A DNA stretch of 51,911 nt from NCBI GenBank assembly GCA_018656555.1, contig JABHZQ010000007.1:1-51911 (forward strand). The letters run 5' to 3'. A program made the position numbers and the translations under genes. The notes beneath the pieces are model-generated. The model did not search any database. It saw only the letters and a program-made list of their open reading frames with translations, and was not told the DNA's origin. The DNA comes from an archaeon. Lineage in GTDB: Archaea > Nanobdellota > Nanobdellia > SCGC-AAA011-G17 > GW2011-AR17. Of this stretch, positions 25,194 to 49,524 are shown one piece after another (position 1 is the stretch's first letter; each line of letters starts with the position of its first letter).

Positions 25194-26306
25194 TTATCCT
25201 GTTCCAGTTTGAACTTTTAGAAAGGTTCCATCACCATCTAAACCTTCAACAGATAGTTCATCTATTGTTTCTTCTAATTGTACTAATTGTCCACTTCGGT
25301 ATAGTCTTCCATCTGGAGTTATTCTAAATTCTGATGCACCAGGTCTTTCAAGAATTTCAGCTGCAAATGCATGAGCACTTCTTGCTGCATCTAGTGGACT
25401 TGATCCTGCAAGAACATCTAAAGTAAATTTAACTGAGTATGCATCTCCTGCACCGGCAGGATTTATAGGATTTGCAACAACCATCCCAGAAGTAAGAGAG
25501 AAATCATGCTTATCTCCTCCAGTATATATTGTTGATCCTTTTGATCCTTTTGTAACTACAATTAAAGAAAGGGGGCTTAACTTTCTTGCAAAAAGTTTAG
25601 GTAGAGCTTCAGTATCCCCATCATAAAGATTATCAGCAACTATTTGTGCTTCTGTTTCATTTAAGAACAATAAAGAAGAATAATCAACAATGTCATCAAA
25701 TAAAGATTCGTCAAATGTTGGATTTTCTAAAGTCCCCAATCTTGGACCTGGAGTGTAAACCACAAAACCTCTATCAAAATGCTCTGATGTTAAAATGTCT
25801 CTTGCAAATCCTGGATGAGTTGTGGGTAGATGAAAAACATCTGTAAGTGCAATAGCTTGTCTAAAGTCGTCTGCTTTTAATCTATCAAATCTTCTTGAAG
25901 CTCTTTGATCATACCAAGTTCTTACTTGATCTTTAGACATATTTCCAAGAAGATATGCACATCTAGACATATTTCCAGTATCTTTTAATATACCACCAAT
26001 ATCAGCTAATTCTAGTGCTTCATAAGCTCTTCTTGCTGCTGCAGCATATTGATCTTTGCATCTTCCAAGAACAGTTAGTACTGCAAGTTTTGTAACTCTT
26101 CCAGAAAGATATGATGCTGTATTAAAACCAGGACCTCCCACCCAAGTAGTAGCCTCCCCTCCAAATCTATCTACAAATGTTTGAACTGGATCCTCAGAAC
26201 CACTTATTTCAGCAGCAACCCTACTATAATTTGTTTCGTGGTATGGAGTTACAATATCTAATGTTGTATTCCCAACAACCCAATTATTTTGAAACCTGGA
26301 ATCCAT
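25194..26306 (-). CDS. PfkB-family sugar/nucleoside kinase
   Basis: 370 residues, ribokinase fold. N-terminal WVGGPGFNTASYLSGRVTKLAVLTVLGRC is the substrate-binding glycine motif (PfkB signature 1). NPAGAGDAYSVKF near the C-terminus is signature 2, with Asp288 as the likely catalytic base. LLFLNETEAQIVADN and LIVVTKGSKGSTIY match the middle strands. It phosphorylates a sugar or nucleoside hydroxyl; the substrate is not evident. The C-terminus is about 40 residues longer than usual. Confidence 0.88.
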   Translation of the reverse strand: MDSRFQNNWVVGNTTLDIVTPYHETNYSRVAAEISGSEDPVQTFVDRFGGEATTWVGGPGFNTASYLSGRVTKLAVLTVLGRCKDQYAAAARRAYEALELADIGGILKDTGNMSRCAYLLGNMSKDQVRTWYDQRASRRFDRLKADDFRQAIALTDVFHLPTTHPGFARDILTSEHFDRGFVVYTPGPRLGTLENPTFDESLFDDIVDYSSLLFLNETEAQIVADNLYDGDTEALPKLFARKLSPLSLIVVTKGSKGSTIYTGGDKHDFSLTSGMVVANPINPAGAGDAYSVKFTLDVLAGSSPLDAARSAHAFAAEILERPGASEFRITPDGRLYRSGQLVQLEETIDELSVEGLDGDGTFLKVQTGTG

Positions 26307-30709: not shown

Positions 30710-31099
30710 TTACTCTAGAAATAAGTAGTGTTGAGTGGAAGGAACCTGACTTTGGGCTTCTGGACCCCATTCATAAGCTTTTAGAATTCTTGATGCTTCA
30801 GTAGGTGGTACTAAGTCTTTGTCTCTTTCATAGTTATATAATCCTTTAAGGGCTAATTCAGTAAACACAACTTCTCTGTATAACCCATTTAGAGAATTAT
30901 CAGTATTCCAACCTTCTGGCATTGCGTGTCCTTGGTTTAGAAGATCTTGTCTATCTATTAGAGATAGTGAATCAACTGTATCTGAAAGTTCAGCTGTAGC
31001 AGCTGTTGAATACCAAGTTATGTGTGGGACATTTGAATTCCAAACCCAACCTCCAGCTAACAAGGTAATTGCTGTTACACCATTTAGTATTCTTCCCAT
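30710..31099 (-). CDS. Hypothetical protein with N-terminal anchor
   Basis: 129 residues. A short hydrophobic segment at residues 5-20 (LNGVTAITLLAGGWVW) is a signal or anchor. The remainder is helical (SDTVDSLSLIDRQDLLNQGHAMPEGWN ... LNGLYREVVFTELALKGLYNYERDKDLVPPTEASRILKAYEWG). No family recognised. Lies 31 bases downstream of endA on the same strand. Confidence 0.55.
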   Translation of the reverse strand: MGRILNGVTAITLLAGGWVWNSNVPHITWYSTAATAELSDTVDSLSLIDRQDLLNQGHAMPEGWNTDNSLNGLYREVVFTELALKGLYNYERDKDLVPPTEASRILKAYEWGPEAQSQVPSTQHYLFLE

Positions 31100-34510: not shown

Positions 34511-34538
34511 AAAAATTAAATCCCATTCGGTGATATAT

Positions 34539-36038
34539 ATGCTCGATACACGATCCATAAGACAACATTTCCCTTATTTGCAGGGAGATCTGGCCCTAAA
34601 TGTACAGAGAGAATTTCCAAGAGATAGAACTTTTTTGGATAACACTGCTTCTACACAATTACCTTTACCAGTTTTTGAAAGAATTGCTGAATCTCTTTTT
34701 GAGTATGCTAATATTCATCGAGGAGAGTATGATGCTTCACGAAGAACAACTGAAGATTTTGAAAGAGCCTATAATACTGCTGCTAATCTAGTTAATGCTG
34801 ATTCTTGGAGAGAGATTATGTTTGGTAGAAATGCTACTGAGATGGTTAATCTTATTATGAGAGGTATTGCTGAACAGATTAGAGATGGAGATAATATTGT
34901 TTCAACTCAACTAGAACATAATTCCAACTATGTACCTTGGTTTGGTTTACAACAGATGCTAAAGAAGAGAGGAATTAATATTGAAATTCGGTTGGCTGGT
35001 TTTGATAGAGAGACTGGAGAATTAGATCAAGGAGAACTTGAAAGTTTAATTGATGGTAAAACTAAATTAGTTAGTGTTACTGGTGCTTCTAATTTTTTAG
35101 GATATAAACCGAATGTACCAAGAATTGGCGAGGTTGCACATTCTTCTGGTTATGAACATACTGACGGTAGAAAAGGTTCTTACTTCTTGGTTGATGGTGC
35201 TCAATTAGTACCTGGAAGTCCAGTTGATGTTAAAAAAATGGGAGCTGACTTTTTAGCTTGGTCTTTCCATAAAATGAGTTTACCTTTAGGAGTTGGTGGG
35301 CTTTTTGCAAGAAAAGAAGTTATTGAAACTTTTGATCCATTCTTATATGGTGGAGATATGATTTATGATGTTCAAGAGGGAGCTGTTGAATATCAAGAGC
35401 TACCTTGGAAATTTACTGCTGGAACTCCCAATGTTATTGGAACTCTGGCTACTGGTTTTGGAACTAGTTTTTTGATGCACTTAGGTTTAGGAAACTTAGG
35501 ATCAGAAGAGGCTAGAGCTAAATTTATTGAAACACAAGCTTTTATGAATACTCCACGAGGAGATTTTGAGTTACCTTTTGCTGTATCAGAAAGAGATAGA
35601 GAGGTTTGGATTCCTTACTTGAGATCTAATCCTGGTAAAATGGCAATATTCAAAGATCCTGCACTGAGATTGGCAGAGACAAGAAGAATTATAGATGTTG
35701 CTATGGGCAATATCGAAACTCATGAACAAGAGTTAACTCAATCAATGATTGAGGCTTTGAGTGGAATTCCAAATGTTACTATTTATGGTCCTAAAGATGC
35801 AACAAAAAGAACAGGCTTGGTTGCATTTAATGTTAATGGTGTAGATCCACAAAATGTTGCCTTTGAATTAAACAGATTAGGTGTTGAATCAAGGAATGGT
35901 AATCACTGTGCATCTTTGGCTCATAATTATTTAGGAATTGAAGGAAGTGTTAGGTTTAGTTTCTATGTTTACAATGATCAATCAGATTTAGATAAAGCAG
36001 TTGATGCTGTTCGAGAAGTGGCTAGGAGGGTTGCATAA
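34539..36038 (+). CDS. SufS-type (group II) cysteine desulfurase with insertion
   Basis: About 499 residues from the ATG at 34,539 (MLDTRSIRQHFPYLQGD), with GGTGA just upstream; a GTG 9 bases earlier is less likely. PLP-dependent class V aminotransferase that takes sulfur from cysteine as an enzyme persulfide. Lys245 in AWSFHKMSLPLG binds PLP, preceded by VDGAQLVPGSPVDV. The catalytic Cys457 is in ESRNGNHCASLAHNYL, the group II form of 'R.G.HCA'. Compared with SufS (about 410 residues) there is an insertion of roughly 80 residues at about 310-390 (LGSEEARAKFIETQAFMNTPRG...). First gene of the operon; its stop overlaps the next start by one base. It probably supplies sulfur for the E1-like protein or Fe-S clusters for the radical SAM enzymes. 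Confidence 0.9.
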   Translation: MLDTRSIRQHFPYLQGDLALNVQREFPRDRTFLDNTASTQLPLPVFERIAESLFEYANIHRGEYDASRRTTEDFERAYNTAANLVNADSWREIMFGRNATEMVNLIMRGIAEQIRDGDNIVSTQLEHNSNYVPWFGLQQMLKKRGINIEIRLAGFDRETGELDQGELESLIDGKTKLVSVTGASNFLGYKPNVPRIGEVAHSSGYEHTDGRKGSYFLVDGAQLVPGSPVDVKKMGADFLAWSFHKMSLPLGVGGLFARKEVIETFDPFLYGGDMIYDVQEGAVEYQELPWKFTAGTPNVIGTLATGFGTSFLMHLGLGNLGSEEARAKFIETQAFMNTPRGDFELPFAVSERDREVWIPYLRSNPGKMAIFKDPALRLAETRRIIDVAMGNIETHEQELTQSMIEALSGIPNVTIYGPKDATKRTGLVAFNVNGVDPQNVAFELNRLGVESRNGNHCASLAHNYLGIEGSVRFSFYVYNDQSDLDKAVDAVREVARRVA

Positions 36039-37981
36039 TGGAACAATTACAAAGATTAATTCAAGAGAGTGGCTTAGAAGATCAAGCTGCATGTAAAGAT
36101 AATATTTTGATGTTAGGAAATTCACTTTTTGAAGCTTTTGGAATAAATGGTGGATTGGAAACAGATTATGAGAGAGGTTATGAAAAAGCAAGAGAATTTT
36201 TAGGAAGAGTTTGTGGTGTTTTTGATGATCCTACTCACTTAGTTAGAATAGCACCATTTGCTTATGCTTTCTTAGGAGAGGAGATGTTTAATAGAACTTT
36301 AGATGTTGTTTTACAAAAAGCAAGAGATAATCCTGATGACCGATCAATTTTAGATCAAGTTTTTAGTGGTGCTACTTTATTGAGACCTGAACTTAGAGCG
36401 GCCTTTTTATCTGATATTAGTGCAGCAGATGTTTTAGATGATGGACTTTTTGGTATTGATGATTATATTTCAGATGTTGATCCTAGTTTACAATTTGAAA
36501 GTGCAGATGCATTTCCAAGTCAGTTTACAACTGCTAATGTTAGGAAAGCTACTGAGTTACTTGGAAAATATTTACAGATGGGTGTTTTTCGTTCTGGAGT
36601 AGGTTTTACTGAGAATTTTGAAGCATTAAATCAAAGTATGGAAGGGTTTGGATATTTGATGGAAAGATCTACTGATGATTTAACTTTAATTGTTACAAGG
36701 GATCCTGTAAAGTTTATGTCTATGGGTTTAGGTAATGTTGCTTTTACAGATAGAATTACTGCGCGACCTCAAGGTGATGGTGATCAAAAAGATTTTAGAT
36801 ATCCTGGAACTGTTCTTGTTGATGATGATGTATCTTTACAAGAGGTTCAAAGATTCTATGCAGATGCTACAGTTGTCTATCTTAATAGAGATGTTCCTAC
36901 TGGATTTGAGCATTTAGTTGTTGGTGATGATGAAGATGTTATTGGAGCCCATTTAAGATTTATTTCAAAGAATCGGAAAGAAGGCTTGGTTCATCTTGGA
37001 GCTATGTTAGAGGCAGAAGTTAGAAATGCTGAAGATTTAGTTAGTAGAGGGAATGAATATTTCTTAGATGTAAGAAAAGGATTAGAAGATTTAGGAAGAA
37101 GAGATCTTATTGATAGAATGGTTGAAGCTGGAGGATATAGTGTTCCTCACAGAACTGATGCTAATTTAATGGTTTTAGTTTCTCCTAAAAGAAAAGATTT
37201 AGCAGATATATTTGAAGGAAGAGCTGGAGCGGATAAGAGAATGATGTTTTATAGAGAATTGCCTACTATTGAAGATACTGGAATGCCTTTTGTTTTTGTG
37301 ACAACTGAAGCAATACCTCAAAGTGAAATACTTGCAGCTTATCCTTCTGCAACTATCTTGTATGTTGCTGAGAATGATGCTAAGGAAAAAGCAATTTTAG
37401 CGGTTGATGAGAATGCTTTTGTTGTTAATGAAAAAACTGTTGCACCAAGAGGTAGGTTTAGAGGTACAGATAAAGGTAGAGTTGGAGATTGGGTTGTTAA
37501 TAGTTTCTTTGATAGAATTGCAAGAGCAAGAGGAGAAGGAATTACTAGTATGTATGATATTGCAAGAGGAATATCTGATGAAGTGAAAGATAGAAGAGAT
37601 AAAATAATGTTTGCAACCCATCTTAGAGGTTTTTATGATGAAGCAGCCCCTTATTATCGACTGCAGGAACAATTTGGACAGATGCCATTAGTTTTGCAAT
37701 TGACTGATGGTGTTCTTATGGAAAGTTGTCCAACTGGTGGATGTTTTAATTTAGATGCACCAGACACTGGAGGTTGTTGTGGTGGGGGAAATCTTCCAGG
37801 AGTATTGATTGATTTTGCAATTGCATATAGAAAACAAGTAGGTGAAGAGAGGTTTATGCGGGAATTAACTGCATATCATGATGGAGACGTAAGAGAACCG
37901 TGGTATTTTGATAGTACCCACTATCAAAGACACTTTAAAGGTTTGACAGAAACAGCAGATCAAGATGGAATGATCTTATAA
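36038..37981 (+). CDS. 647-residue protein with internal duplication and CPTGGC Cys-rich motif
   Basis: Not recognised. The N-terminal 210 residues are helical. Two similar segments follow, at about residues 214-310 (LTLIVTRDPVKFMSMG ... YADATVVYLNRD) and 376-475 (LMVLVSPKRKDLADIF ... YPSATILYVAEND). Each looks like a small alpha/beta domain ending in a 'DE-x-(V/F)' strand. Near the C-terminus Cys564 and Cys569 (SCPTGGCFN) and Cys580-Cys581 (TGGCCGGG) form a Gly/Cys-rich loop that could hold a metal, an Fe-S cluster or a persulfide. The same CPTG-x-C motif opens the JAMM protein two genes on. Position directly after the desulfurase suggests a sulfur acceptor or scaffold; this is inference. 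Confidence 0.75.
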   Translation: MEQLQRLIQESGLEDQAACKDNILMLGNSLFEAFGINGGLETDYERGYEKAREFLGRVCGVFDDPTHLVRIAPFAYAFLGEEMFNRTLDVVLQKARDNPDDRSILDQVFSGATLLRPELRAAFLSDISAADVLDDGLFGIDDYISDVDPSLQFESADAFPSQFTTANVRKATELLGKYLQMGVFRSGVGFTENFEALNQSMEGFGYLMERSTDDLTLIVTRDPVKFMSMGLGNVAFTDRITARPQGDGDQKDFRYPGTVLVDDDVSLQEVQRFYADATVVYLNRDVPTGFEHLVVGDDEDVIGAHLRFISKNRKEGLVHLGAMLEAEVRNAEDLVSRGNEYFLDVRKGLEDLGRRDLIDRMVEAGGYSVPHRTDANLMVLVSPKRKDLADIFEGRAGADKRMMFYRELPTIEDTGMPFVFVTTEAIPQSEILAAYPSATILYVAENDAKEKAILAVDENAFVVNEKTVAPRGRFRGTDKGRVGDWVVNSFFDRIARARGEGITSMYDIARGISDEVKDRRDKIMFATHLRGFYDEAAPYYRLQEQFGQMPLVLQLTDGVLMESCPTGGCFNLDAPDTGGCCGGGNLPGVLIDFAIAYRKQVGEERFMRELTAYHDGDVREPWYFDSTHYQRHFKGLTETADQDGMIL

Positions 37982-38002
37982 TAAAATTTGGAGGCAAATA
38001 AA

Positions 38003-38692
38003 ATGGCTACATTAGGAGCATGTGGGGATGAAAGACCTGAAGATAGAAAAGCAGAGCAAAAAAGAGCAAAAAAAGTACATAAATTCAACGAGATAGGAGA
38101 GATGCCAATTACAATGGTTGCTTATCCTGGATGTATTGAAGGAGATAGAGTTCCTGTTTCTGTTAAAGGTGATGATAGAGCAGTTTTACTTTTTGGTACA
38201 GCAGACATGATTGCAAGATATGTAATTGGAGAAGAAGTTGCATTACCAAAAAAAGGTAAGGGTATTAAATCTATTCCTAAAGCACTTAGGGGACAAACAT
38301 TCAAAAGAAATGTTACTAGAAGATATGAAGAACCAGTTGAAAGAATTGGAGATGAAATGCATGGAACTGGTGGAGTTGGAGAATTAGCTAAGAGACAAAA
38401 TAAAACCTATAAGGGATATACTCTAAAAGCTAATGGTGACAGTTTAACTGCTGACTCTATTGTGAATAGTTACTTCACAGAGATGGTCTTTGTTGAGGGC
38501 CCAGAAGGTAGACCAGTACCTAAATCTGTTGATGACCTTGTTGCTGAAGATGTAAAAATCCTTAGAAAAGATCAGGAAGTTCATGTTTTAGGTGGAGTTG
38601 AAATGGTTATAACTGCGATTCTTGTTTCAGGACAATATGAACCTGCAGCAAAAACCCCTGCATATGGAGATGACATTACATCAAGAATATGA
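38003..38692 (+). CDS. 229-residue protein, candidate ubiquitin-like modifier precursor
   Basis: Starts at the ATG at 38,003 (MATLGACGDERPEDRK) behind GGAGG at 37,990-37,994. After a charged N-terminal segment come two similar-sized beta-rich parts, residues about 33-110 (MPITMVAYPGCIEGDRVPVSVKG...) and 135-210 (TYKGYTLKANGDSL ... LRKDQEVHVLGGVEM). The second part ends in LRKDQEVHVLGG, Gly197-Gly198, followed by a 31-residue extension; another GTGG lies at residues 121-124. A ubiquitin-like precursor cut after Gly-Gly by the JAMM protease would look like this, but the beta-grasp fold is not proven from sequence. Its stop overlaps the E2-like start (ATGA). Confidence 0.75.
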   Translation: MATLGACGDERPEDRKAEQKRAKKVHKFNEIGEMPITMVAYPGCIEGDRVPVSVKGDDRAVLLFGTADMIARYVIGEEVALPKKGKGIKSIPKALRGQTFKRNVTRRYEEPVERIGDEMHGTGGVGELAKRQNKTYKGYTLKANGDSLTADSIVNSYFTEMVFVEGPEGRPVPKSVDDLVAEDVKILRKDQEVHVLGGVEMVITAILVSGQYEPAAKTPAYGDDITSRI

Positions 38693-40137
38693 GTCTAGAA
38701 ACAACATTTTTAGATAGGATTGCTGAGAGGCAATCCTCTTTTGTATTATTTAAAGGTCAGGCTTATGCTATTACTGAAGATCCAATTAATGGAAATTTCT
38801 TGGATATTATGGGAAGCAGAATGGCTTTAGTTCCTTCTATGCCTTTTAGAGATTTTGAAAGGTTAGATGAACAACTTTATGGGGCTGATGTTGAAAACTA
38901 TTGTGCTAGATATGTTCGTGAAAAAATTGATAGTGAATTAAGAGCTGAAGATGAAGTAAGAAGAGAAACTTCTCGAATTAATACTTTAAAATATTTAATG
39001 GATAGATTATTACCTCATTTAGTTGCAAAAAAATATAGTTCTGATGAAATACTGTTACATGAGGTTCTTGGAACTGAAGTGGATAAAGGTCCTGTGGATC
39101 TAGCACGAGATGAAATAAGAGAAAAACTAAATCATGATTTTGGTGTTGAGGATATTGAAGTTGATGAAGATCCTGCTGAGAGAATGAGAGCTAATGTTTT
39201 GGCGAGAGAGAAAGGAGAGTTAGATAGAGCACCTTTAATGGGTGAAGCTGGAGAGTATGATTCTGTTTTACAGGCTGTTATAGGTAATCAACCAATTTAT
39301 GTTATGGATGGTAGATTGTATGCTCTTGAATCTCCGGGTGATATTGAAAGAGGAAAATTTACATTTGTTATGGGTGGTAGAGCTTATACTCCTTCAGAGA
39401 CAAGACTTCCAAGTTTAAGGGAAGTATCTCAAGAAATTTTGGAAAGGAGAAAAATGGTTTGGAGAATTGCTGCTCTTGAAAGGAGTCAAGATACTTTTGC
39501 AGGTATAAGAGATCAGATTCATACTGCAGAAGTTACTGAAAGACAGATGCATGAGTTGGCTAAGTTAGAAGAATTTGATTTAGGGAGTTGTGGTTTTGTT
39601 TTGAAAGATGGTTCTTATTATGTTTATTCAAGAGTTCCTAAGTTTGCAACACAAGATGGAAGAGATAAGGATGTTTTTTGGCCTTATGATGCAACAAGAG
39701 TTGCAATTAAGATTGGGTGGAGTGGGGGCCAAGCTCATAGTAGTGGTGATGGAGTTGTTATTGAGAAGAGAGAGTTTCATCCTTGTTTAAGAAATAGATC
39801 TAGTGGAGGGTGGAAAGGAATTTGTAACTTAACTCGGGGAGCGAGTGATTATGGAAAAACTCCTGCAGAGATGGTTAGAAAACTTTCTGATGCTGTTACT
39901 GTTATTACTGAACCTTTGTCAGAAATAAGTTTGAAAAGGCATGGGAGTCCAGGTAGTTATTCTTATTTTGGGGATAGTGTTGAGTCTATTTTAGGACAGG
40001 GTTCTCTAACAAGAGAAGAAGCTGAAGAACAAGGTTATGGTATTGTTGAAGTTATTGCAAAAACTTTGGAGTTAGAAGATTTACCAGAAATTGAAGAAGT
40101 GGAAGATGAGGGAGAGGATGGAAAAGTAGAGGAGTAA
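38689..40137 (+). CDS. E2 (ubiquitin-conjugating)-like protein
   Basis: 482 residues. Residues about 300-420 carry an E2-type pattern: LKDGSYYVYSRVPKF, DVFWPYDATRVAIKI (compare 'YPF.PP.V.F.T'), then FHPCLRNRSSGGWKGICNL with His364-Pro365 and the candidate catalytic Cys379 in GIC, as in the E2 signature 'HPN...G.IC', and a following helix (TPAEMVRKLSDAVTVITEP). The N-terminal 300 residues contain an internal duplication: FVLFKGQAYAITED...MALVPSMP (residues 18-65) and IYVMDGRLYALESP...AYTPSETRLPS (198-260). The C-terminus is acidic. The neighbouring E1-like and JAMM genes strongly support a conjugation role. The family assignment is from pattern, so it is probable but unproven. Confidence 0.78.
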   Translation: MSLETTFLDRIAERQSSFVLFKGQAYAITEDPINGNFLDIMGSRMALVPSMPFRDFERLDEQLYGADVENYCARYVREKIDSELRAEDEVRRETSRINTLKYLMDRLLPHLVAKKYSSDEILLHEVLGTEVDKGPVDLARDEIREKLNHDFGVEDIEVDEDPAERMRANVLAREKGELDRAPLMGEAGEYDSVLQAVIGNQPIYVMDGRLYALESPGDIERGKFTFVMGGRAYTPSETRLPSLREVSQEILERRKMVWRIAALERSQDTFAGIRDQIHTAEVTERQMHELAKLEEFDLGSCGFVLKDGSYYVYSRVPKFATQDGRDKDVFWPYDATRVAIKIGWSGGQAHSSGDGVVIEKREFHPCLRNRSSGGWKGICNLTRGASDYGKTPAEMVRKLSDAVTVITEPLSEISLKRHGSPGSYSYFGDSVESILGQGSLTREEAEEQGYGIVEVIAKTLELEDLPEIEEVEDEGEDGKVEE

Positions 40138-40141
40138 AAAA

Positions 40142-41923
40142 ATGGTTAAGAAGAAGAAGAAAAAGCAAGTAGATGATGAATGTCCTACTGGAGTATGTGG
40201 TTTAAATGGTGTACATAATGGTGGGTATGATGATGATGGTGATTTTGGTGATGAATTATTAGATATGGTTATGGGTGATGATGAGCCTAAAGTAGAAAAA
40301 GTTCCTGCTTTAGTTGATTTACTTCCTGCACAATTAGTAATTGAGGATAGGGCTTTACAGTTAGGTTATATGATTGGTCCTTTGACTCAACAGCATTATA
40401 AAAAAGCTTTAGAGGTTGGTGGATTTCTTATTGTTGATAGAGATGCTCCTGCCCATTATTTAGATTTTGCTATTCCTCATGGTTTACCTGTTACTTCAGG
40501 AACTGTTGTTATGGCTGATCATTATGATAATGTTGCTGTCGAGAATCGAGCTAATAATCAAAGAAATGGCACTCATCTAAAAATTGGTGCTATGTTTCAT
40601 ATTCATCCAAGTAAGGGAAATCAAGGTTTGTACCATAGTGGACAAGATGATGCTGCAAGTTTACAGTTACTTGGACGAATGGCAAAAACTACAAGAGTGG
40701 TTCATGAAGCTAAATTTCCTTTGTTTGAAGAGGCAATGAGAACAGAGTATGGTGAGGGCGAGTATGTTTTAAGAGGAGATGCTTTGAGTGATGCTATTCA
40801 GAGATTTGTTTATCCTGATGAACAAATGTTTAAAGAAGTTCTAAGAAGTTTTGGAATTAGAGTTCCAAGAGAGCTTAATAGAGATAAATTTTTAGGAAGA
40901 TTATTAGATACAATTGGAAAGGATACTCTTGAACCTAGAAAGGTGAATTATGCTGTTAGTTTTGTTTTTAATAATGGTGGAAAAGGACCTTATGTAAAAA
41001 TGACTGCTGAAGAGCGGTTTGCTATTTCAGGTAAGAAGAATGTTACTACTATTGATAATAGAAGTGGATTAAGTATAGTTAAATCTAATGTTGGAGTAAA
41101 TTTACCAACAGAGGAAGAAGTTTTGGCTCTTATTGCTGAGAGAGTTGTCTATAATCCTCCTAAGCCCCCTGCTAAAAAAGTTATTGGTGCAGGAGGAAGT
41201 CAAGGGGGATGGCAAAGTTGGGGTAGACAAGGTGTTGCTGGTGCTATTGGTCAATGGTTAGATGGTACAGGACAGGCTGGTGGTGCAATTCCTCTATCAG
41301 GAAGTAGTACTTATTATACTAGACCTGTAAGAAAAACTGTTGCTGAAAGAATTGCAAGTTTGGATGCATTGGTTCAAGCACAAGAACCAGATGATCAATC
41401 AGATGTATATGCAGAACTTATGGGTGAAGAGGTAGAACCTGTAAGAGCTAAACCAAAAGCTAAATCTAATCTTGATGTTATGGACAAAAGTGAAGAAGCA
41501 ACTTACACCAATGTGGAGATTATTGATCTTTTTGTTTTAAAGTTAGGAGCTTACATTACTGAAGCTAGACATAGTTGGGCAACTTATTCAACTTACCTTT
41601 ATGAATTGTTTGATGAGGGAATTGGAACCTATACAAAAAAAGATGGTTATGTGGGATTAAAAGATAGTGTTATGGAATTGGGTGAATTGGTTCAAGATAA
41701 TCCACAAATTGTTGAAAGACATACTCTGAGACCCTATAAATTTGGGCATGCAGGTGAAAATTTGATTAAAGAATATATGGCAGAGCGAGATGAGAGGACA
41801 GTTGACTTTATGTTATCTTTTGGTTTAGCTGCTGGATTCCCTGAAATGGATGCTGCTCTTGAAAGTTATGTGCAAGATGTGTTAGATTATGATCAAGAAG
41901 AAGCACCCGAAGGAGTAGAATGA
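40142..41923 (+). CDS. JAMM/JAB-domain metalloprotease
   Basis: 593 residues. The zinc peptidase motif is complete: Glu91 (LEVGGFLIV), His153 and His155 (MFHIHPS), Ser166 and Asp169 (HSGQDDAAS), the E...HxHP...SxxD signature of Rpn11- and Mov34-type deubiquitinases, with a slightly long loop between HxHP and S. The N-terminus is lysine-rich followed by ECPTGVCGLNG (Cys14, Cys19), echoing CPTGGC in the 647-residue protein. A Gly/Ser-rich linker (residues 340-400) leads to a helical C-terminal domain. Expected to mature a ubiquitin-like precursor or remove it from targets. Stop overlaps the E1-like start (ATGA). Confidence 0.88.
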   Translation: MVKKKKKKQVDDECPTGVCGLNGVHNGGYDDDGDFGDELLDMVMGDDEPKVEKVPALVDLLPAQLVIEDRALQLGYMIGPLTQQHYKKALEVGGFLIVDRDAPAHYLDFAIPHGLPVTSGTVVMADHYDNVAVENRANNQRNGTHLKIGAMFHIHPSKGNQGLYHSGQDDAASLQLLGRMAKTTRVVHEAKFPLFEEAMRTEYGEGEYVLRGDALSDAIQRFVYPDEQMFKEVLRSFGIRVPRELNRDKFLGRLLDTIGKDTLEPRKVNYAVSFVFNNGGKGPYVKMTAEERFAISGKKNVTTIDNRSGLSIVKSNVGVNLPTEEEVLALIAERVVYNPPKPPAKKVIGAGGSQGGWQSWGRQGVAGAIGQWLDGTGQAGGAIPLSGSSTYYTRPVRKTVAERIASLDALVQAQEPDDQSDVYAELMGEEVEPVRAKPKAKSNLDVMDKSEEATYTNVEIIDLFVLKLGAYITEARHSWATYSTYLYELFDEGIGTYTKKDGYVGLKDSVMELGELVQDNPQIVERHTLRPYKFGHAGENLIKEYMAERDERTVDFMLSFGLAAGFPEMDAALESYVQDVLDYDQEEAPEGVE

Positions 41924-43377
41924 CAAAAGAAGTACAAACTGGAATGATTGAAGAAGATCGATATAGAAGGCAGAAACTTATTTGGGGAGATGAAGGACAA
42001 GCAAAACTTGATAATGCAAAAGTTGCTGTTATTGGTCTTGGTCCTCAAGGAATTTATAGTGCCTTGTGTATGGCTGCTTTAGGTATTGGTAATATTGTTC
42101 TAGTTGATGGTAATAATAGTGATGTTGGAGAGATGTTCCTAGATATGGATGTTCCCCAAGGTGCAAGAGGAGATGTTTATCCTGAATTGTTAAGAAGAAT
42201 AAACGCTCAAATTGGTATTCAAGGTTATGCTACTAACTTAGAAAGTTCTATTGATCAATTAGCATTAAGTGGTGCGAATGTTATTGTTGATGCTACTAAT
42301 AACCAGAGATCTAAAAGATTAGCTCTTGCTTTTGGAAGAGAGAAAGATATTCCTGTGTTGAGTACTTCTTCAAGATGGGGTTATACTAAACTTATGTTGG
42401 GAAGTGAGGGAAAGGAGCCTGAAATGTTAATGCCAATGTTTGAAGGACATGAACAAGATCCATTAATGGCTTTGGTAATGGCTGGAATTGTAACTGAGAA
42501 AGTTAAGAAGTTAGCATTTGGAAGTTTGGATGAGGTTATTAGAGATCCAATTAGGTATAGACTTGGTGGGAAGAGGTTTGGATTTCCAGATGTAGATGAA
42601 GAGATACCTTTACCAAATTATGATTTGTATAGAGCATTGAATATTTTATTTTTAGGAGAGGGTGCATTAGGAAATTGGGCTACAATTGCAATGTCCCATT
42701 TAAGACCTGGAAGAGTTGATAAGGTCGACTATGATATCTTTGAATCACATAATATTAATAGACAGGTTTTGGCTTATGATGGAATTGATGCAGAAAAAGC
42801 TGCACACCTTGCTGAAAAATTAAGAAGGATGACAAAAGGTGCTACAGAGAGTGAAGGTTTTAATGTAAAGATTCTACCTGGTTTTTCTCTTGAAAGAGAG
42901 TATGATTATGTTTTTGATCTTGTTGATAATTTTTATACTAGGGCTGTGAATAGTGCTTTTGCTGTGAATAATCATATTCCTCTTGTTAGTGCTGGAGCAG
43001 GAGCACACGGTGGAAGATGGGATGTTCATGTTGAAGGAGAAACTCAATGTATGGGTTGTATGTTTGATATTTATGAAAGAGGAAGAGAGGAAGAGATTAT
43101 TAGAAGAGTTAGTTGTGCTGCTAATCCAAATCCTGCTGTTGTTATGAGTAATGCTATTGCTGGTGTTGCTGCTGTTTTAGAATTATTTAGTTTAGTGGAA
43201 CCTGAAAAATATGGTGGAGCATTTAATGGGGAGCAAACTTATAGGGCTGTGGGTAAGGTTAGGTTAGGTACTTCTCCTTCTAGAGGAGCTTGTGATTGTT
43301 ATTCTAATGAAGCTCCAAGTTTAGAGATTAGTGAGGCAGAGGTTGCAGCTTATACAGAGGCAGGAGGGGAGAAGTAA
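41920..43377 (+). CDS. Two-domain E1/ThiF-like activating enzyme
   Basis: 485 residues with two Rossmann domains of the ThiF/E1 family. Domain 1: YRRQKLIWGDEGQAKLDNAKVAVIGLGPQG, nucleotide loop at residues 39-44. Domain 2: LFLGEGALGNW, loop at 246-251, then VDYDIFESHNINRQVL with Asp270/Asp272 and Asn280-Arg281, the adenylation residues. CxxC (Cys377, Cys380) and CDC (Cys458, Cys460) are likely zinc ligands; Cys399 in VSCAANPNPAV is the best candidate for a thioester cysteine. The order of a first, less canonical domain and a second, complete domain resembles the inactive and active adenylation halves of eukaryotic E1. No ubiquitin-fold domain is seen. Activates the C-terminus of a ubiquitin-like protein with ATP. 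Confidence 0.88.
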   Translation: MTKEVQTGMIEEDRYRRQKLIWGDEGQAKLDNAKVAVIGLGPQGIYSALCMAALGIGNIVLVDGNNSDVGEMFLDMDVPQGARGDVYPELLRRINAQIGIQGYATNLESSIDQLALSGANVIVDATNNQRSKRLALAFGREKDIPVLSTSSRWGYTKLMLGSEGKEPEMLMPMFEGHEQDPLMALVMAGIVTEKVKKLAFGSLDEVIRDPIRYRLGGKRFGFPDVDEEIPLPNYDLYRALNILFLGEGALGNWATIAMSHLRPGRVDKVDYDIFESHNINRQVLAYDGIDAEKAAHLAEKLRRMTKGATESEGFNVKILPGFSLEREYDYVFDLVDNFYTRAVNSAFAVNNHIPLVSAGAGAHGGRWDVHVEGETQCMGCMFDIYERGREEEIIRRVSCAANPNPAVVMSNAIAGVAAVLELFSLVEPEKYGGAFNGEQTYRAVGKVRLGTSPSRGACDCYSNEAPSLEISEAEVAAYTEAGGEK

Positions 43378-45845
43378 TGGAGGAAGAAGAAGATTTTATT
43401 CTGGATCTATTTGAAGAGTCTCTAGATGCTGGGAAAAAAGAGGAAGTAATTGCTTGGGAAGCTCCTGCAGTTAATAGAGTTGCTAGGGTGTTGGAAGAGG
43501 GTAGGAGAGATGTTACTAATTATGATCCTTTTACAAATATTTTAGTGGGTTATTTAGTTAGAGAGGGGAGGAAAGGTTTGGTTGGAGAGTTGAATGGAGT
43601 TAGTCAAGAAGATAGAGTTAAAATATTATTAGCTGCTGAAGCTTTGGCTCCACATAGAGTTAATCCAAAAGTTAGCGATGTTGAATCTTTTGAAGATTAT
43701 ATGGGTGCAGTTGGTGTTGCATTTGGTGAAAGATTAGGAAGAATGTTGAGGTTGGATATGGAATTTAAGGGTGTTGAAGAAGCTAAAGCAGAAGGAGTTG
43801 AATTTGTTGATGAAATTGATCCTTTGTTTAGTGGTTTTAGAGCTGAAACTTTAATTGCTGCTAATGTTGTTTCTAATTTAGTTGGTGAGGTTGAGGTTGG
43901 AAGTTATGATGAATTAGCTAGAGCTGCTTTCTTAAATTTTAATGGTAGTGAAGGAAATGGAGTTTTAGATGTTACAAAAGTTCTTGTTGAAAAAAGTTTG
44001 GGTGCAGCAGATGTTGATTTAGATGTTGATACTGCTGTTGCAAGATATCAAGAGATTTTAGTTTCAAGATTTGGTTTTACTCAAGATTTGATTACTCAGT
44101 TAGAAAGGTTTCAAGGAATGACTTTTGATTTTAATGGAATGTCTAGAATGATTAGAACAGAATTTGAAGAGAGAACTGGTTATGTTCCTAATATTGGAAC
44201 TCATTATGATAGAAGAGCATATGAAAGATTGAAAGGAGAACTTCTTGAATTAGATGTAAAATTGTTTAAACCTCTTCCTACTGAACCGACTCAACATTTT
44301 AATAGTAGAGATTGGGCAAGACCACATCAGGCTATGGGTGAAGGTGGTAAACGTTATCATAGAAGAAGAAGTGAAACTATTGAAAAGCTTCCTCTTGGAA
44401 CTGTGGGTCATCTTGATGGTGATCATGATTTTGTGCCGACCAATAAAGGAGGATACTTTCATTTAAGATATAGAGAGTTGCAAAAGTTAGAAGAGGTTAT
44501 TCTTGAGGTTGCTGGGGCGGGTGGAGATTTTAGAAGAGGAGATAGAGTTAAACTTGTTAATAATTTAGGACCTCAATCACATTATGATACTGATGAATAC
44601 TATTATGGTGGAACTATAAGGGAAATGAAGCTAGGAATTGAAGGAGAGGTTATAACTGGAGATGATAGAATGGTTAGAATAGAGTTTCCGAGAAGAGCAT
44701 GGAATTGTCATCCAGATGAATTGAAAAACTTAACAAGAACTCCAGAAAAAATAGAAGATGAAAAAGATGAAAGAGAAGAATTGAAAGTTGTTATGGCTGA
44801 AGTTGTTAGTGGGGCTGAAGCTGATTTTGAGAGAGCAAAAGAGAATAAGGAAAGGTTGGTTAGAGATGGTGTTGATACTTTTAGAGCAATGGGTGTTGAT
44901 GATGGAGTTATAAGGTATTTCTTTGATCAATATTTAGATGATGTTGCTGAGTTTGGAGATTTTATGCCAGAGGGAACTATCTTTAATGAAATTATGGAAA
45001 TACAAGAGAGTATGAATTATGGTGGGCTAAGAGATAAAGTTGTTGCATTGGTTAAAGATAGGATGGATGTTTTAGTTAAAGTTGATGATGTAAGAGATGC
45101 TGGAGAGTATGGTAAGTTTAAGGAAGATCTTGTTGATAGAGTTTTACATGGATTTAAGGATAAAAAAGGTAAGAAAACTGAAGGGTTTGAAAGAGGAGAA
45201 CCAGTTATGTTGGATGAAGCTCATGGAAAATATCCAAAGGGAACTATTGCAATTTATCATGCTGATTGTGGGGATGATCATCATGTTGATTTTGATGATG
45301 GGGCTACTGATGTCCATATAGATGAAAGAGTGATAGGTGTTGCTGCTGCTTATGCTTTACCTAAGATTCCTACTGCATATGAGGGGATGAAAAAAGGAGT
45401 AAGGGTTAAGATTAGAAAAGATAGTGAGTATGCTCATCAAAATGATGGAGAAGGAGTAATGGTTAATAATTTTGGGGATGAAGAAGGAGGAAGAGAGCTG
45501 TGGGCCAAGGTTAAATTTGATAAGGGTAGAGGTAATAATTATAGGGAAAAAGATTTAGAACCGGTTGATCCTGCTAAATTAACAGGAAGGAAATTAAAAA
45601 AATATAACAAAGCTGTTGCTGCAATGGAAGAGTTGAAAGTTGGGATTGAAGAACAGTTAGGTCCTATAATTGCAGAGGCTGAGAGAGATCATGCTGATGT
45701 TAATAGAAGATTAGATGATCTTACTATGAAAACTATTGATACTTTTAGAAGTATGGGATTTGAGGATGAGGCTATTGGAACTATGTTTAGAGAAAACATG
45801 GGAGATACTTCTTATTTGAGAGAGAGGGAATTGTTAGACTATTAG
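43377..45845 (+). CDS. 822-residue protein with SH3-like (MIB/HERC2-like) barrels and MGF repeats
   Basis: Not recognised as a whole. Residues 1-375 are helical, with a FGFTQDLITQLERFQGMTFDF stretch that aligns with segments of the two following radical SAM proteins. Residues 388-454 are a barrel (GDRVKLVNN...EYYYGG...GIEGEVI...WNCHPDELKN) also present in those proteins. Two more barrels follow, at 604-652 and 670-730; the last (GVRVKIRKDSEYAHQNDGEGVMV...KVKFDKGRGNNYREKDLEPV) resembles the MIB/HERC2 domain of ubiquitin ligases. Two repeats DTFRAMGVDDGVI and DTFRSMGFEDEAI look like the MGF loop of UBA domains. A recognition or ligase-like adaptor is possible. Starts one base inside the E1-like stop. 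Confidence 0.75.
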   Translation: MEEEEDFILDLFEESLDAGKKEEVIAWEAPAVNRVARVLEEGRRDVTNYDPFTNILVGYLVREGRKGLVGELNGVSQEDRVKILLAAEALAPHRVNPKVSDVESFEDYMGAVGVAFGERLGRMLRLDMEFKGVEEAKAEGVEFVDEIDPLFSGFRAETLIAANVVSNLVGEVEVGSYDELARAAFLNFNGSEGNGVLDVTKVLVEKSLGAADVDLDVDTAVARYQEILVSRFGFTQDLITQLERFQGMTFDFNGMSRMIRTEFEERTGYVPNIGTHYDRRAYERLKGELLELDVKLFKPLPTEPTQHFNSRDWARPHQAMGEGGKRYHRRRSETIEKLPLGTVGHLDGDHDFVPTNKGGYFHLRYRELQKLEEVILEVAGAGGDFRRGDRVKLVNNLGPQSHYDTDEYYYGGTIREMKLGIEGEVITGDDRMVRIEFPRRAWNCHPDELKNLTRTPEKIEDEKDEREELKVVMAEVVSGAEADFERAKENKERLVRDGVDTFRAMGVDDGVIRYFFDQYLDDVAEFGDFMPEGTIFNEIMEIQESMNYGGLRDKVVALVKDRMDVLVKVDDVRDAGEYGKFKEDLVDRVLHGFKDKKGKKTEGFERGEPVMLDEAHGKYPKGTIAIYHADCGDDHHVDFDDGATDVHIDERVIGVAAAYALPKIPTAYEGMKKGVRVKIRKDSEYAHQNDGEGVMVNNFGDEEGGRELWAKVKFDKGRGNNYREKDLEPVDPAKLTGRKLKKYNKAVAAMEELKVGIEEQLGPIIAEAERDHADVNRRLDDLTMKTIDTFRSMGFEDEAIGTMFRENMGDTSYLRERELLDY
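44538..44740 (+). repeat. Shared SH3-like module, copy 1 (in the 822-residue protein)
   Basis: Codes for EYYYGG, then LGIEGEVI, then WNCHPDEL. The same spacing of Y-x-YGG, LG-x-x-GE and W-x-x-HPDE recurs in the two downstream radical SAM proteins. Confidence 0.75.
44871..44940 (+). repeat. Internal helical repeat with MG(V/F) motif, copy 1
   Basis: Encodes DTFRAMGVDDGVIRYFFDQYLDD. It matches a second copy at 45,735-45,800 (DTFRSMGFEDEAIGTMF) and is preceded in both by a charged helix. Confidence 0.65.
45384..45567 (+). other. MIB/HERC2-like domain within the 822-residue protein
   Basis: A GxRV start, a 'DGEG' turn, a (W/V)-K-F-D-x-G strand and NNYREKDLEPV end follow the order of MIB/HERC2 domains ('G..V.RG.D....DG..G.V...W.NG..N.YR...DL'). 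Found by eye, so a profile search is needed. Confidence 0.5.
45735..45800 (+). repeat. Internal helical repeat with MGF motif, copy 2
   Basis: Encodes DTFRSMGFEDEAIGTMFREN near the C-terminus. MGF between two short helices is the classical UBA loop. Confidence 0.6.
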
Positions 45846-45854
45846 GAGAAAAAA

Positions 45855-47254
45855 ATGAAAAATAGAACACTAACCTTGGTAAATGTTGTTAATGATGGCG
45901 ATTGTATAGAGCAACAAGAATGCCTGCACTATCTCTGGCGTATTTAGCTGCTCATACACCTGAAAATTGGGATGTAAAAATAGTTGATGAAACTGTTGAA
46001 CCCTTTGATGCATGGAAACATGTTGAAGGTTCAGATATTGTTGGATTCAGTGGTGGAAATGTATGTAATATTCATAGACTTACTGATCATATTTCTAGAG
46101 TTACAGAATATGATCAAGTTATGGGAGAAGAAACTCCAATTATTTTAGGTGGATATGTTGGCGGATTAAATATTGAAGGATTACCTAATAGAGTGGATGC
46201 TAGAGTTATTGGTCCTGGTGAATTAGCTTTACAAGAATTACTAGCTGATTTTGAAAATGGTGGAATGAAAAGAGAGTATGTTGGTCAAAGAGTTCCGATG
46301 AATGAATTAAGGACTCCTGATTTCTCTGGATTTAATGTTGCTGCTTATGGTAAAAATGTTAATTGGCCTGTAATGACTTCTGTAAGTTGTGGAAATACTT
46401 GTGGATTCTGTAGTGCAAGAGTTGTTTATGGTGATGGTTATGCAAGTAGATCTCCTGAAAAAGTTCTAGCAGATATGGCACAATTTGATCCTGATACTAG
46501 ACTTTATTTTGTAGACCCTAATGTTTTGCAACTTTCAAGAAATGGTAAAAGAAGAGCTAGAAAATTGTTTAAAGGCATGGCTAAACAAAATCATCCTTGG
46601 TTTGGATCTGCAACTTTTAGAGTTTCTGAAGATGAAAGAATGTTAGAAGCAATGGCAGAAAGTGGATGTAAGGGTTTGTTAATTGGATTTGATTCTGCTC
46701 TACCTGAAAGTTTACAGACTGTATCTGCTCCAAAATATAGAGTAAGAGAGGATCAAACTTTAATTGAATATTATGTTGAAGGTGTAAAAAGAATACAAGA
46801 AAAGTTTGGTATTGATGTTTTGGGAACTTTTGTTATTGGTTTTGATACTGATGATGAAAGAACTATTGCAAATACAATTAGGGTTGTTCAAGATTCTGGA
46901 ATGAAAGATGCACAGTATTTACCATTTACCCCTCTTCCAGGTACACCATCTTATAATGAAATGGAAGCAGCAGGTAGAATCATAGATCATAATCTTAATC
47001 GTTATGATTTTACTGATGTTGTTTTTAGACCACAAAATTTCTCTGGTGCAGAATTAAGAGATTCATTAGTAAAGATGTATGATGAAACCTTCCCCAGAAT
47101 GTTGGCAATCTATAGAAGATTTGGTTTGGTTAGAGATAGACCTGAATTGATTAAAGTTGAATCAATGAAGTTAAGAGCTGAAAGAGAAGAAAGAGCAGCA
47201 AGGGAAAGAGAAAGGAGAGGGAGAAGAAGGGGTGGAGGCGGAGGACATCATTAA
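45855..47254 (+). CDS. B12-binding radical SAM protein with apparent frameshift
   Basis: The radical SAM part is intact: CxxxCxxC in SVSCGNTCGFCSARVVYG, then GSATFRVSEDERML, GFDSALPES and GTFVIGFDTDDERT, with an N-terminal cobalamin-type domain (LYRATRMPALSLAYLAAHTPENWDVKIVDETVEP, GFSGGNV, IILGGYVGGL). The long frame opens only at a TTG (45,902) in mid-domain. The missing first strand, MKNRTLTLVNVVNDGD, is encoded in another frame from the ATG at 45,855 behind AGGAG. The frame changes by -1 near 45,897-45,902, so one base seems to be missing or the ribosome shifts. The tail is RRGRRRGGGGGHH, a basic, Gly- and His-rich end. No slippery heptamer is seen. Substrate unknown. Confidence 0.82.
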
Positions 47255-49524
47255 TGGAAGCTGCTTTACAACAACCTTCAACAGGAGATGCAATTGATAG
47301 TTTACTTAGGAAGACCTATCAATTAGTTGCACAAGATAGGATGCATCAGATTGCTGAAATAACTGGTAATCAAGGTTTAGTTCAAGAGTATGGTTCTGGT
47401 GTGAATAGTATCATAGATTTAGAATCACTTTTTGCATTTGCAGGAGAGTTACCTTCACAAGAAGTGCTAGCTCGTATGGTTAAAGCAAAAATTGTTAGTA
47501 AATATGGAGAGGGTGTTGGGGAAGAGGTTATAAGAGTTGAAGAGAGGAGAGAAAGCGAACTTGCAGATCCTCCTGTTGATTATGGTATGTTTGTTGGTGA
47601 GATTAGAGAGGGAATAAATGATAGATTTAGAATTAGTGTTCCTGAAGTAACTGTTCCAGGAAGAGAGGGTTATGGAAAACATAAAACTGAACTAGAAAGA
47701 ACTGTAGCAACAGAAATAGAAAGAAGATTAGATGGGAATTATGGAGAAATTATAGAAGTTACTGAGCTGGCTGGTTTTGATATGGATACTTTAGATCCTG
47801 AATATCATTATGGTGGAAATGAAGATGATCTTGCATTAGGAAGTAGAGGAGAAATTATTGAGGTTGGAGCGGATAGGTATTCTGTTATGGTTGATAGTGT
47901 TGAATGGCAATTACATCCTGATGAAGTTACTCTTACTGGTGAGAACAAATATGCTGGAGTGGATGTTGTTAAGGTTGTTAGAGATATAATTCAAACTGTT
48001 GAAGATAATAAAATGGAAGCTCATATTGCAGGGCAGATAGCAGCTATTAATCAAAATAGAGATAGAGATTTAGATATACGAACTCGTATTTTTAGAGAGG
48101 AATATGGATTAAGTATTGATCAAATATTGGCCATGCATAGAGAAGAAGATTTTGAATATGAAGTTCCAGGTCTACCTAAAGTTGGACCGGGTCTTGTCCC
48201 ATTTAGTGATTTGTATAAATTATTAGCAAAAGCTATTAGTCAAAGAACAGGAAAGGAAATATTGGGTGGGGCTGATGAAATCACTACTAGTGGTGAATTT
48301 AGAATTAATGTTACTGAAGCTGCTGATCATCTTGGTGTTGATAATGATTTGGTTTTAAGAGTTAGTAGTGAAGTTGCAGATATCTTAGATAAACAACACT
48401 ACCTAAAAGGTAGAGAATATGCTGCTAGAAATGGTGCTAAAGATGTTACAAGAGCTATGATTGAAGAAATGTTAGGTAGAGATGGTCTGCCTTGGACTAG
48501 AAGACTTGTGCTATATGCTAACAAAGATGTATATGAAGGAGGAGATCCTTTTGCACCTCCCTCTGAAGAACTATTCAGAGTTATAAAACTTGAAGTTGGT
48601 GGAGGTTGTGCTTATGGAAAATGTACCTTTTGTATGGAATATGCTGGTGCACCTTTCTTTGTTCATAAACAGGCTAAGTTTGAAGCCCATGCAAGAGAAG
48701 TTAAGAGATTGTTGGGAAGTGATAGTGAATATATTAGGAGAGTCTTTCTTTCAGGAGGAGATACTTTTGCTCTTCCAACAAAAAGATTGAAAGGTTATCT
48801 AAGCACTGTTAATGAACTTTTTAATGATGGTTATGAGAGAAATATTAGAAGAGTTGAAGCTTTTTCAAGAACAGAAGGAATTACAAGAAAGAGTGTTGGT
48901 GAAATTAAAGATTTAGTTGATCATAATCTTAGACTTCTTTATTGGGGAGCTGAAACTGGATCTGATGAACTTTTGGCTTATGTAAATAAGGGTATTACAA
49001 GAGCTAAAATGGATAAAGCTATTGCTAAATTAACAAGCACTTCGATGATGGTTTCTATTATGATTATGCCAGGGTTGGGTGGAATGAGATTTTATGATCA
49101 ACATGTAAGAGAGACAGTAGCTCTTGTTAATGCTTTGAAACCAAGATGGACAACTTTCCATACAATAACTCCAAAACCAGGAGCAAGATATGGTAAGATA
49201 ATGGCTGAAGAGATGGCTGCAGGAACTAATAGACCTCTAACTGAGGAAGAGGTTGTTGAACAGATGCATGATATTGTTGCAGGTATGCGTACAGGTTATA
49301 GAAATTTGGTTGCAACTTATTATCCACCCTCTGCAAAGATTGCAATTAATCCAGTTACATTTAGAGGTTATATGCATAGGGGAAATGGTCAATTTGGAAT
49401 TTTGACTGAATTGAAAGAGTGGTTTAGCCTAGGGGAGAGAGTACCAAGTCAAGATTTAGTTGATACTGATTTTAATAAAGGGAGTGGAATAAGAGCTTTG
49501 GCTAGAGGTGGAGAAGCATGGTAG
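47254..49524 (+). CDS. Radical SAM protein with N-terminal accessory modules (paralog 1)
   Basis: 756 residues. Residues 1-430 are accessory: a helical start (DSLLRKTYQLVAQDRMHQI), the shared barrel at 174-231 (EYHYGGNEDDLALGSRGEIIEV...WQLHPDEVTL), and REEYGLSIDQILAMHREEDFEYEV. The radical SAM core begins at FRVIKLEVGGGCAYGKCTFC with Cys452, Cys457 and Cys460, a CX4CX2C spacing seen in some COG1032-type proteins in place of CX3CX2C. FLSGGDTFALP, WGAETGSDELLAYVNKG and MIMPGLGGMRFYDQH follow. Paralog of the next gene, which it overlaps by 7 bases. Likely acts on a protein or peptide delivered by the accessory part; that is inference. Confidence 0.85.
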   Translation: MEAALQQPSTGDAIDSLLRKTYQLVAQDRMHQIAEITGNQGLVQEYGSGVNSIIDLESLFAFAGELPSQEVLARMVKAKIVSKYGEGVGEEVIRVEERRESELADPPVDYGMFVGEIREGINDRFRISVPEVTVPGREGYGKHKTELERTVATEIERRLDGNYGEIIEVTELAGFDMDTLDPEYHYGGNEDDLALGSRGEIIEVGADRYSVMVDSVEWQLHPDEVTLTGENKYAGVDVVKVVRDIIQTVEDNKMEAHIAGQIAAINQNRDRDLDIRTRIFREEYGLSIDQILAMHREEDFEYEVPGLPKVGPGLVPFSDLYKLLAKAISQRTGKEILGGADEITTSGEFRINVTEAADHLGVDNDLVLRVSSEVADILDKQHYLKGREYAARNGAKDVTRAMIEEMLGRDGLPWTRRLVLYANKDVYEGGDPFAPPSEELFRVIKLEVGGGCAYGKCTFCMEYAGAPFFVHKQAKFEAHAREVKRLLGSDSEYIRRVFLSGGDTFALPTKRLKGYLSTVNELFNDGYERNIRRVEAFSRTEGITRKSVGEIKDLVDHNLRLLYWGAETGSDELLAYVNKGITRAKMDKAIAKLTSTSMMVSIMIMPGLGGMRFYDQHVRETVALVNALKPRWTTFHTITPKPGARYGKIMAEEMAAGTNRPLTEEEVVEQMHDIVAGMRTGYRNLVATYYPPSAKIAINPVTFRGYMHRGNGQFGILTELKEWFSLGERVPSQDLVDTDFNKGSGIRALARGGEAW
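47773..47946 (+). repeat. Shared SH3-like module, copy 2 (radical SAM paralog 1)
   Basis: Encodes EYHYGGNEDDLALGSRGE followed by W-x-x-HPDE and TGEN. Near-identical to copy 3 in its first half, and related to copy 1. Confidence 0.85.

Follow-up and report, generated by a model that had tools for sequence, protein, structure and literature searches.

A 51,911-nucleotide stretch of archaeal DNA (contig JABHZQ010000007.1 of assembly GCA_018656555.1; hereafter the window) encodes a single-chain E1-like enzyme of 485 amino acids (aa), made of two homologous ThiF-type adenylation domains of which one has an intact and the other a degenerate nucleotide site. The chain carries a conserved cysteine, its gene is linked to genes for a JAMM protease and an E2-like protein, and its structure model has a pseudodimer fold. 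From these observations we consider it likely that the protein is the pseudodimeric activating enzyme of a dedicated ubiquitin-like protein (Ubl) conjugation cassette in DPANN archaea. The gene and the features within it are as follows.

41920..43377, + strand: E1-like enzyme, single-chain pseudodimer of an inactive adenylation domain (IAD) and an active adenylation domain (AAD), 485 aa; ATG start, one open frame
41959..42612, + strand: N-terminal IAD, residues 14-231, with RYRRQ at 14-18, GLGPQG at 39-44, and T126, N127, K132 and K197
41959..41973, + strand: RYRRQ motif, residues 14-18, likely an arginine finger into the active half, by analogy with MoeB and Uba1
42619..43317, + strand: C-terminal AAD, residues 234-466, with GEGALG at 246-251, D270/D272, N278-Q282, K293, D336 and R341
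42727..42765, + strand: DYD...NINRQ nucleotide/Mg site, residues 270-282
43048..43299, + strand: C377, C380, C458 and C460 (CxxC...CxC), probable structural zinc site
43114..43116, + strand: C399, putative thioester-forming cysteine within a mobile crossover loop, present in 49 of 51 homologues; the ThiF cysteine lies in the same loop

An earlier note on this DNA had placed ThiF-type loops at residues 39-44 and 246-251 and had assigned the DxD...NxNRQ adenylation residues to the second domain only, and both assignments are correct. The two loops read GLGPQG and GEGALG, the second half holds D270-Y-D272, N278-I-N280-R281-Q282, K293 and D336, and the N-x-N-R-Q signature is absent from the first half. 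Pfam ThiF matches two stretches of the protein (whole-protein E value 1.6e-36), and each half separately exceeds the curated ThiF cut-off in a six-frame search of the genome. We counted residue conservation over the 51 long (full-length) E1 homologues that we collected. In the AAD, G246, G248, D270, D272, N278 and K293 are invariant (51/51) and R281 (50/51), D336 (50/51), Q282 (49/51) and C399 (49/51) nearly so. The IAD position aligned to the Mg-site residue D336 is N127, an asparagine in 46 of the 51, and R17 of the RYRRQ motif is present in 41. Because the IAD keeps a distinct conserved set of its own (R17-Q18, Q27, G39, G55, N95, T126, N127, K132 and K197), we read it, from this pattern, as an inactivated but selected domain rather than a decaying one. 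Six cysteines in all occur in the window protein: C50, the four of the probable zinc site, and C399. In a pairwise alignment C399 and the ThiF cysteine share a crossover loop and are offset by at most two residues.

The structure model, made with AlphaFold2 from an alignment of 14 natural homologues, is of good overall quality (predicted local distance difference test, pLDDT, 86.9; predicted template modelling score, pTM, 0.89), with very low confidence at loop 400-405, which adjoins C399. Two-domain eukaryotic E1s occupy the top ranks of a Foldseek search of the PDB. With VIA-align, where we treated rows no more than one Z unit apart as tied, residues 10-465 superpose on Uba7, Uba6 and Uba1 over about 400-425 residues (Z 32-33, root-mean-square deviation 2.6-3.1), and the bacterial E1 chains 8tz0_A and 8tyz_A superpose over 382-391 residues (Z 32.7); ThiF, MoeB and SAE2 align to the C half only (Z about 25). 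The bacterial chains come from E1-E2-Ubl structures which, judging by the title and release date of the entries, we take to be BilD. Since the top rows are tied within one Z unit, the model does not distinguish a eukaryotic from a bacterial type of E1. Together, the model and the residue pattern show the canonical Uba1-type arrangement, an inactive and an active ThiF domain paired as a pseudodimer. The earlier note's proposal of a single chain with inactive and active halves resembling those of eukaryotic E1 thus gains support. Its further statement, which assigns such a fusion to eukaryotes, does not stand as worded, since the IAD-AAD layout is also that of bacterial BilD (PMC11354881). No insertion of the SCCH Cys-domain type was found: only about 38 residues separate the strand ending at residue 370 from the helix at 408. 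Nor is there a UFD; the last residue, 485, comes about 20 positions after the adenylation domain.

Two lines of evidence bear on the origin of the two halves. First, profiles of the N and C halves are homologous (E value 7.6e-24), yet just 13% identical, and the N-half profile alone matches Escherichia coli ThiF (2e-22), MoeB (3e-21) and Uba4 (6e-18), as well as the IADs of Uba1 and NAE1. Second, N halves and C halves fall into separate groups (support 98/99 and 91/95, respectively) in a tree built by maximum likelihood from the 25 N and 25 C halves of 25 loci, with single-domain relatives and references and with bacterial two-domain E1s outside the sample. Of the five single-domain ThiF rows, two were dropped from this tree and a third was poorly filled, with no effect on the N/C split. 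The median local alignment score likewise is 64.5 for a protein's own N-C pair versus 149 for the window N half against other N halves. The split between the halves therefore appears older than the diversification of the family. Two alternatives raised by the earlier note both fail: domain 1 is not an unrelated Rossmann fold, given the ThiF/MoeB matches of its profile (E value about 1e-22), and the pair is not a recent tandem duplication, given the separate clades and the 13% profile identity. On a special kinship with eukaryotic E1, for which that note had suggested a phylogeny against Uba1, the tree does not decide; basal support is 47/0, UBA1_IAD sits on a very long branch, and such kinship, whether by descent or by common origin, is neither shown nor excluded. 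A viral origin of the E1 is not supported, as the viral contigs gave no match. The plasmid and phage matches are ThiF/MoeB-type genes, and in several of these both halves of the E1 match one MoeB gene.

The window is contig 10 of a genome of 1.08 Mb and 97.7% completeness, and also carries archaeal ribosomal protein and tRNA-endonuclease genes. Relatives at 56-60% identity include 'Candidatus Nanoarchaeia archaeon' PL23a_bin.67 and 'archaeon' SI037S2_bin4; these and the archaeal genes place the window in a DPANN archaeon. The E1 of locus L021 is 60% identical to that of the window over its full length. Given this identity and the full-length homologues in dozens of genomes of the phylum, the match is far above chance. 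The E1 profile matched 98 of 371 phylum genomes at E<=1e-30, with about 45 of the matches spanning both domains and the remainder mainly single-domain ThiF proteins. The protein falls under the cut-offs of all NCBIfam equivalogs (best ThiF equivalog 105 bits versus a cut-off of 275). It is the sole ThiF-family protein detected in the genome, and no ThiS or MoaD was found there above cut-off, the only ThiS-like match lying below cut-off inside a 664-aa frame; the usual cofactor partners are therefore apparently missing. Three proteasome-family genes are present.

The E1 gene overlaps the upstream gene by four bases, and the next gene follows directly downstream. It is part of a conserved DPANN cassette with genes for E2-like and JAMM proteins: within 5 kb of the 51 E1 genes an E2-like gene was found in 45 cases, a JAMM gene in 46 and both in 40, always sharing one strand. 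Beside 25 of the 51 we recognised a candidate Ubl. In the window these partners are as follows.

37988..38692, + strand: candidate ubiquitin-like protein, 234 aa; G215 in its tail is the sole invariant alignment column and is followed by a 19-aa tail
38689..40137, + strand: E2-like protein, 482 aa, with H364 P365...C379; modelled region 93-439 weakly resembles UBC-fold E2s (Z 4.5-5.7)
40142..41923, + strand: JAMM/JAB metalloprotease, 593 aa, with E91, H153, H155, S166 and D169

The tails of the candidate Ubls continue past the glycine (...ILVSG-QYEPAAKTPAYGDDITSRI in the window, ...IIIPGG-YESLDAKL in L021 and ...KVGG-K in L023), and this fits what would be expected of a JAMM-trimmed Ubl, the beta-grasp fold being unproven. 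In the E2-like proteins H364-P365...C379 is invariant across 31 aligned homologues, and the typical form, HPF...ICxG, recalls the HPN...C of E2 enzymes; an HP..C was found in 36 of 44 members. The model of the window protein (pLDDT 83.6, pTM 0.58) retrieved UBC-fold E2s in nearly all of the 50 rows listed by VIA-align, and the E2 portion of Cap2 ranked within the first four; a UBC fold is likely, not proven. The JAMM metal site E...HxH...SxxD is present in the window protein, whose loop is three residues longer, and in 47 of 49 family members; Prok-JAB matched 9 of 14 members, and Rpn11 matched with an E value of 7e-4.

Variation around the core is seen at several loci. At L022 the surroundings of a single E1 include a second JAMM gene and a further, partial copy of the E2-like gene (6308-7591, 9139-10581, 4530-6311), and L077 and L089 have two JAMM genes each, which suggests cassette duplication. 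At L022, L024-L026, L028-L030 and L032 the cassette is followed by a gene of 134-174 aa that by eye is Lrp/AsnC-like (helix-turn-helix start) and may be a regulator of the cassette.

By analogy with MoeB, Uba1 and BilD, from which we draw the arginine-finger role, the thioester chemistry, the identity of the Ubl, the direction of transfer and the biological targets, the system could operate as follows. The IAD would not bind Mg-ATP productively and would be the permanent partner half in a MoeB-like dimer, its N-terminal arginine (RYRRQ) presumably completing the sole active site, in the AAD. The JAMM protease would trim the tail of the candidate Ubl to expose a terminal glycine, which the AAD would adenylate with ATP. 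C399 in the crossover loop would then attack the adenylate to form an E1~Ubl thioester, and the thioester would probably be handed to C379 of the E2-like protein for conjugation of the Ubl to targets, from which the same JAMM protease may later remove it.

Several findings weigh against a Ubl conjugation system of this kind. In sequence searches the candidate Ubl had no match to any beta-grasp family or PDB entry. The E2-like protein has no Pfam E2 family match, its structural scores are middling (Z 4.5-5.7, best Foldseek E value 0.23), and 8 of the 44 members have no readable HP..C. The E1 lacks the Cys (SCCH/FCCH) and UFD domains of its eukaryotic counterparts, so the details of thioester transfer must differ from those of Uba1.

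As to what such a cassette would be for, anti-viral defence of the Bil type, perhaps bacterial in origin, in which the Ubl is put on viral structural proteins, is compatible with conjugation but in our judgement unlikely. The gene inventory equals that of BilABCD (Ubl, E2, JAB and IAD-AAD E1; PMC11354881), PADLOC E1-E2 models match weakly, and the spread is patchy, the E1 profile being matched in about a quarter of the sampled phylum genomes and far fewer of these matches being full-length. Against this purpose, the E1 has no BilD Cys domain, the viral contigs have no match, housekeeping genes lie upstream of the operon, and PADLOC recognised no defence-gene neighbours in the window operon, where only the desulfurase resembles SspA/DndA, as any desulfurase may.

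The desulfurase belongs to an extension of the operon that is seen in the window's subclade, a set of five loci (the window, L021, L101, L067 and L068) recovered with 100/100 support in both the N and the C halves of the E1. The additional genes of the window are these.

34530..36038, + strand: SufS-like cysteine desulfurase (Aminotran_5); full syntenic copy at the window and L021 loci only
36038..37981, + strand: 647-aa conserved subclade protein with a CPTGGCF...GGCCGGG motif; in four subclade loci, the L101 stretch not showing the gene
43377..45845, + strand: 822-aa subclade protein directly downstream of the E1; in all five subclade loci
45902..51854, + strand: three radical-SAM proteins (450, 756 and 778 aa) at the end of the co-directional run, from Pfam and locus comparison

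Homologues of the 756- and 778-aa radical-SAM proteins occur at the other four subclade loci, and the 450-aa gene at none of those. The 756-aa (47254-49524) and 778-aa (49518-51854) genes, both on the + strand, are tandem paralogues at 38% identity, and a short segment is common to these two proteins and the 822-aa protein adjoining the E1. A CPTGxC sequence occurs in the 647-aa protein (SCPTGGCFNLDAPDTGGCCGGG) and again, as ECPTGVCGLNG, at the JAB protein's N terminus; the 647-aa homologue of L021 has ACPTGGCFKL and the JAB protein there has CPDGTC. Neither the desulfurase nor the 647-aa homologue of L021 (relative G001) forms a single open frame (17568-19468, 15984-17552); both are broken in two, possibly through frameshifts or assembly errors.

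The desulfurase and radical-SAM genes invite a reading in which the E1 serves a sulfur carrier, as in MoeB/MoaD or ThiF/ThiS: a thiocarboxylate would be formed on a small protein with sulfur from the SufS-like enzyme and would supply radical-SAM enzymes that act on a peptide or a metabolite, with maturation of the carrier as the only task of the JAMM protease. We regard this as quite improbable. In the window and L021 the desulfurase does come first in the operon, radical-SAM genes do close it, the E1 cysteine does sit in a ThiF/MoeB-type loop and not in a Cys domain, and operons that combine JAB, E1 and carrier genes for sulfur chemistry are documented (PMC1779556). However, the constant neighbours across the family are the E2-like and JAMM genes, a syntenic desulfurase occurs in only two of the five subclade loci, sulfur transfer does not call for an invariant HP..C of the E2 type, and the genome has no ThiS/MoaD-family protein above cut-off. 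Since the 822-aa, radical-SAM and desulfurase genes belong to the subclade, sulfur or radical chemistry may be an add-on to the core cassette there, and within the window's subclade it remains a rival. Peptide tailoring, again in this subclade only, with an ancestral E1/E2/JAB set recruited to process or activate the CPTGxC segments of the 647-aa protein and the JAB N terminus for modification by the radical-SAM enzymes, as for a ribosomally synthesized and post-translationally modified peptide, is very improbable: the CPTGxC segments and their L021 counterparts, the presence of 756/778-aa type radical-SAM genes in five of five subclade loci and the ThiF-type peptide-modifying enzymes PaaA and MccB among the E1 profile matches favour it, but the CPTGxC resemblance is short and spotted by eye, the match of the E1 pseudodimer to Uba1 and bacterial E1 spans the whole chain, and in most relatives the four-gene core cassette stands alone.

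Most proteins of the operon (34530-51854, + strand) are lysine-poor (3-6% lysine, isoelectric point about 5) with no rise in GC content at third codon positions, and many neighbouring genes encode proteins with 10-15% lysine and an isoelectric point of about 9; a lysine-poor make-up is also seen in isolated genes at 1170-2174, 25194-26306 and 30710-31099. A family-wide lysine depletion against self-conjugation is not claimed, for although lysine in the system genes falls short of the local median at 39 of 52 loci, the mean difference is only 0.8 points, and the reduction is strong only in some loci including the window. Elsewhere in the window, between tRNA-Arg and tRNA-Cys genes, a 222-aa protein (16226-16894, + strand) matches Sigma-70 region 2 (PF04542, E value 2.6e-6, above cut-off); bacterial sigma factors are unexpected in an archaeal genome.

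Conjugation of a Ubl by a dedicated cassette remains the reading that we prefer, and the distribution of that cassette suggests a wide spread of ubiquitin-type protein tagging among DPANN archaea, which are among the least-studied branches of life. Likely E1-E2-Ubl-JAMM cassettes are thereby placed in ultra-small archaea, and the genome of the window also has proteasome-family genes. We found no report of a DPANN E1/E2 system in the open-access literature, most subscription journals lying outside the search. The novelty is an IAD-AAD E1 without a Cys domain in DPANN, the fused IAD-AAD layout itself being known from BilD and Uba1; a eukaryote-like layout is thus present in archaea besides bacteria and eukaryotes. 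A long-standing question is how the symmetry of MoeB/ThiF dimers gave way to a pair in which only one half is active, and a broad archaeal family with an asymmetric pair and a simple loop cysteine offers small, expressible enzymes with which the role of the inactive half could be tested. It is conceivable, though we think it unlikely, that DPANN archaea hold old and diverse complete Ubl cassettes and that their minimal E1 is a living intermediate between MoeB/ThiF and Uba1, in which asymmetric fusion preceded the Cys and UFD domains.

Among known systems, each half of the window E1 resembles MoeB, ThiF and UbaA in being of the ThiF family, with the catalytic-cysteine loop and probable zinc site of that type, but those enzymes are homodimers, whereas here two diverged halves share one chain and a single active site. 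With Uba1, Uba6 and Uba7 it shares the IAD-AAD order in one chain, the sole nucleotide site in the second half and an N-terminal RxRQ, and it superposes on them over about 420 residues (Z 32-33). Unlike them it is half as long, keeps the CxxC...CxC probable zinc site and has no FCCH, four-helix bundle, SCCH Cys domain or UFD, and the tree gives no special kinship. Cap2 of the cyclic-oligonucleotide-based anti-phage signalling system (CBASS) and the 6a-type E2-E1-JAB fusions likewise encode E1, E2 and JAB functions together; here the proteins are separate, with an IAD-AAD pair instead of a homodimeric E1 domain.

The BilABCD system has as further hallmarks a BilA Ubl with two beta-grasp domains and a CEHH motif in BilB. 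The archaeal Ub-E1l-E2l-srfp cluster of Caldiarchaeum subterraneum has a Ub-like protein, E1, E2 and JAMM-type protease (PMC11354881); by description its E1l has a catalytic-cysteine domain of its own, the cluster includes a RING protein, and the lineage is very different. BilD itself is a pseudodimer of an N-terminal IAD and a C-terminal AAD with a helical Cys domain of about 80 aa, and its gene shares an operon with those for a Ubl, an E2 and a JAMM protease (PMC11354881). The window E1 shares the single chain, the domain order and the whole-chain superposition (8tz0/8tyz, Z 32.7), and its operon would have the same partners, the Ubl and E2 assignments being provisional. It differs from BilD, to which no close sequence match appeared among the matches listed, in having no such Cys domain, with C399 placed in a short MoeB/ThiF-type loop; in an E2-like partner of 320-550 aa with extra N-terminal domains; and in its archaeal (DPANN) host, BilD being mostly alphaproteobacterial.

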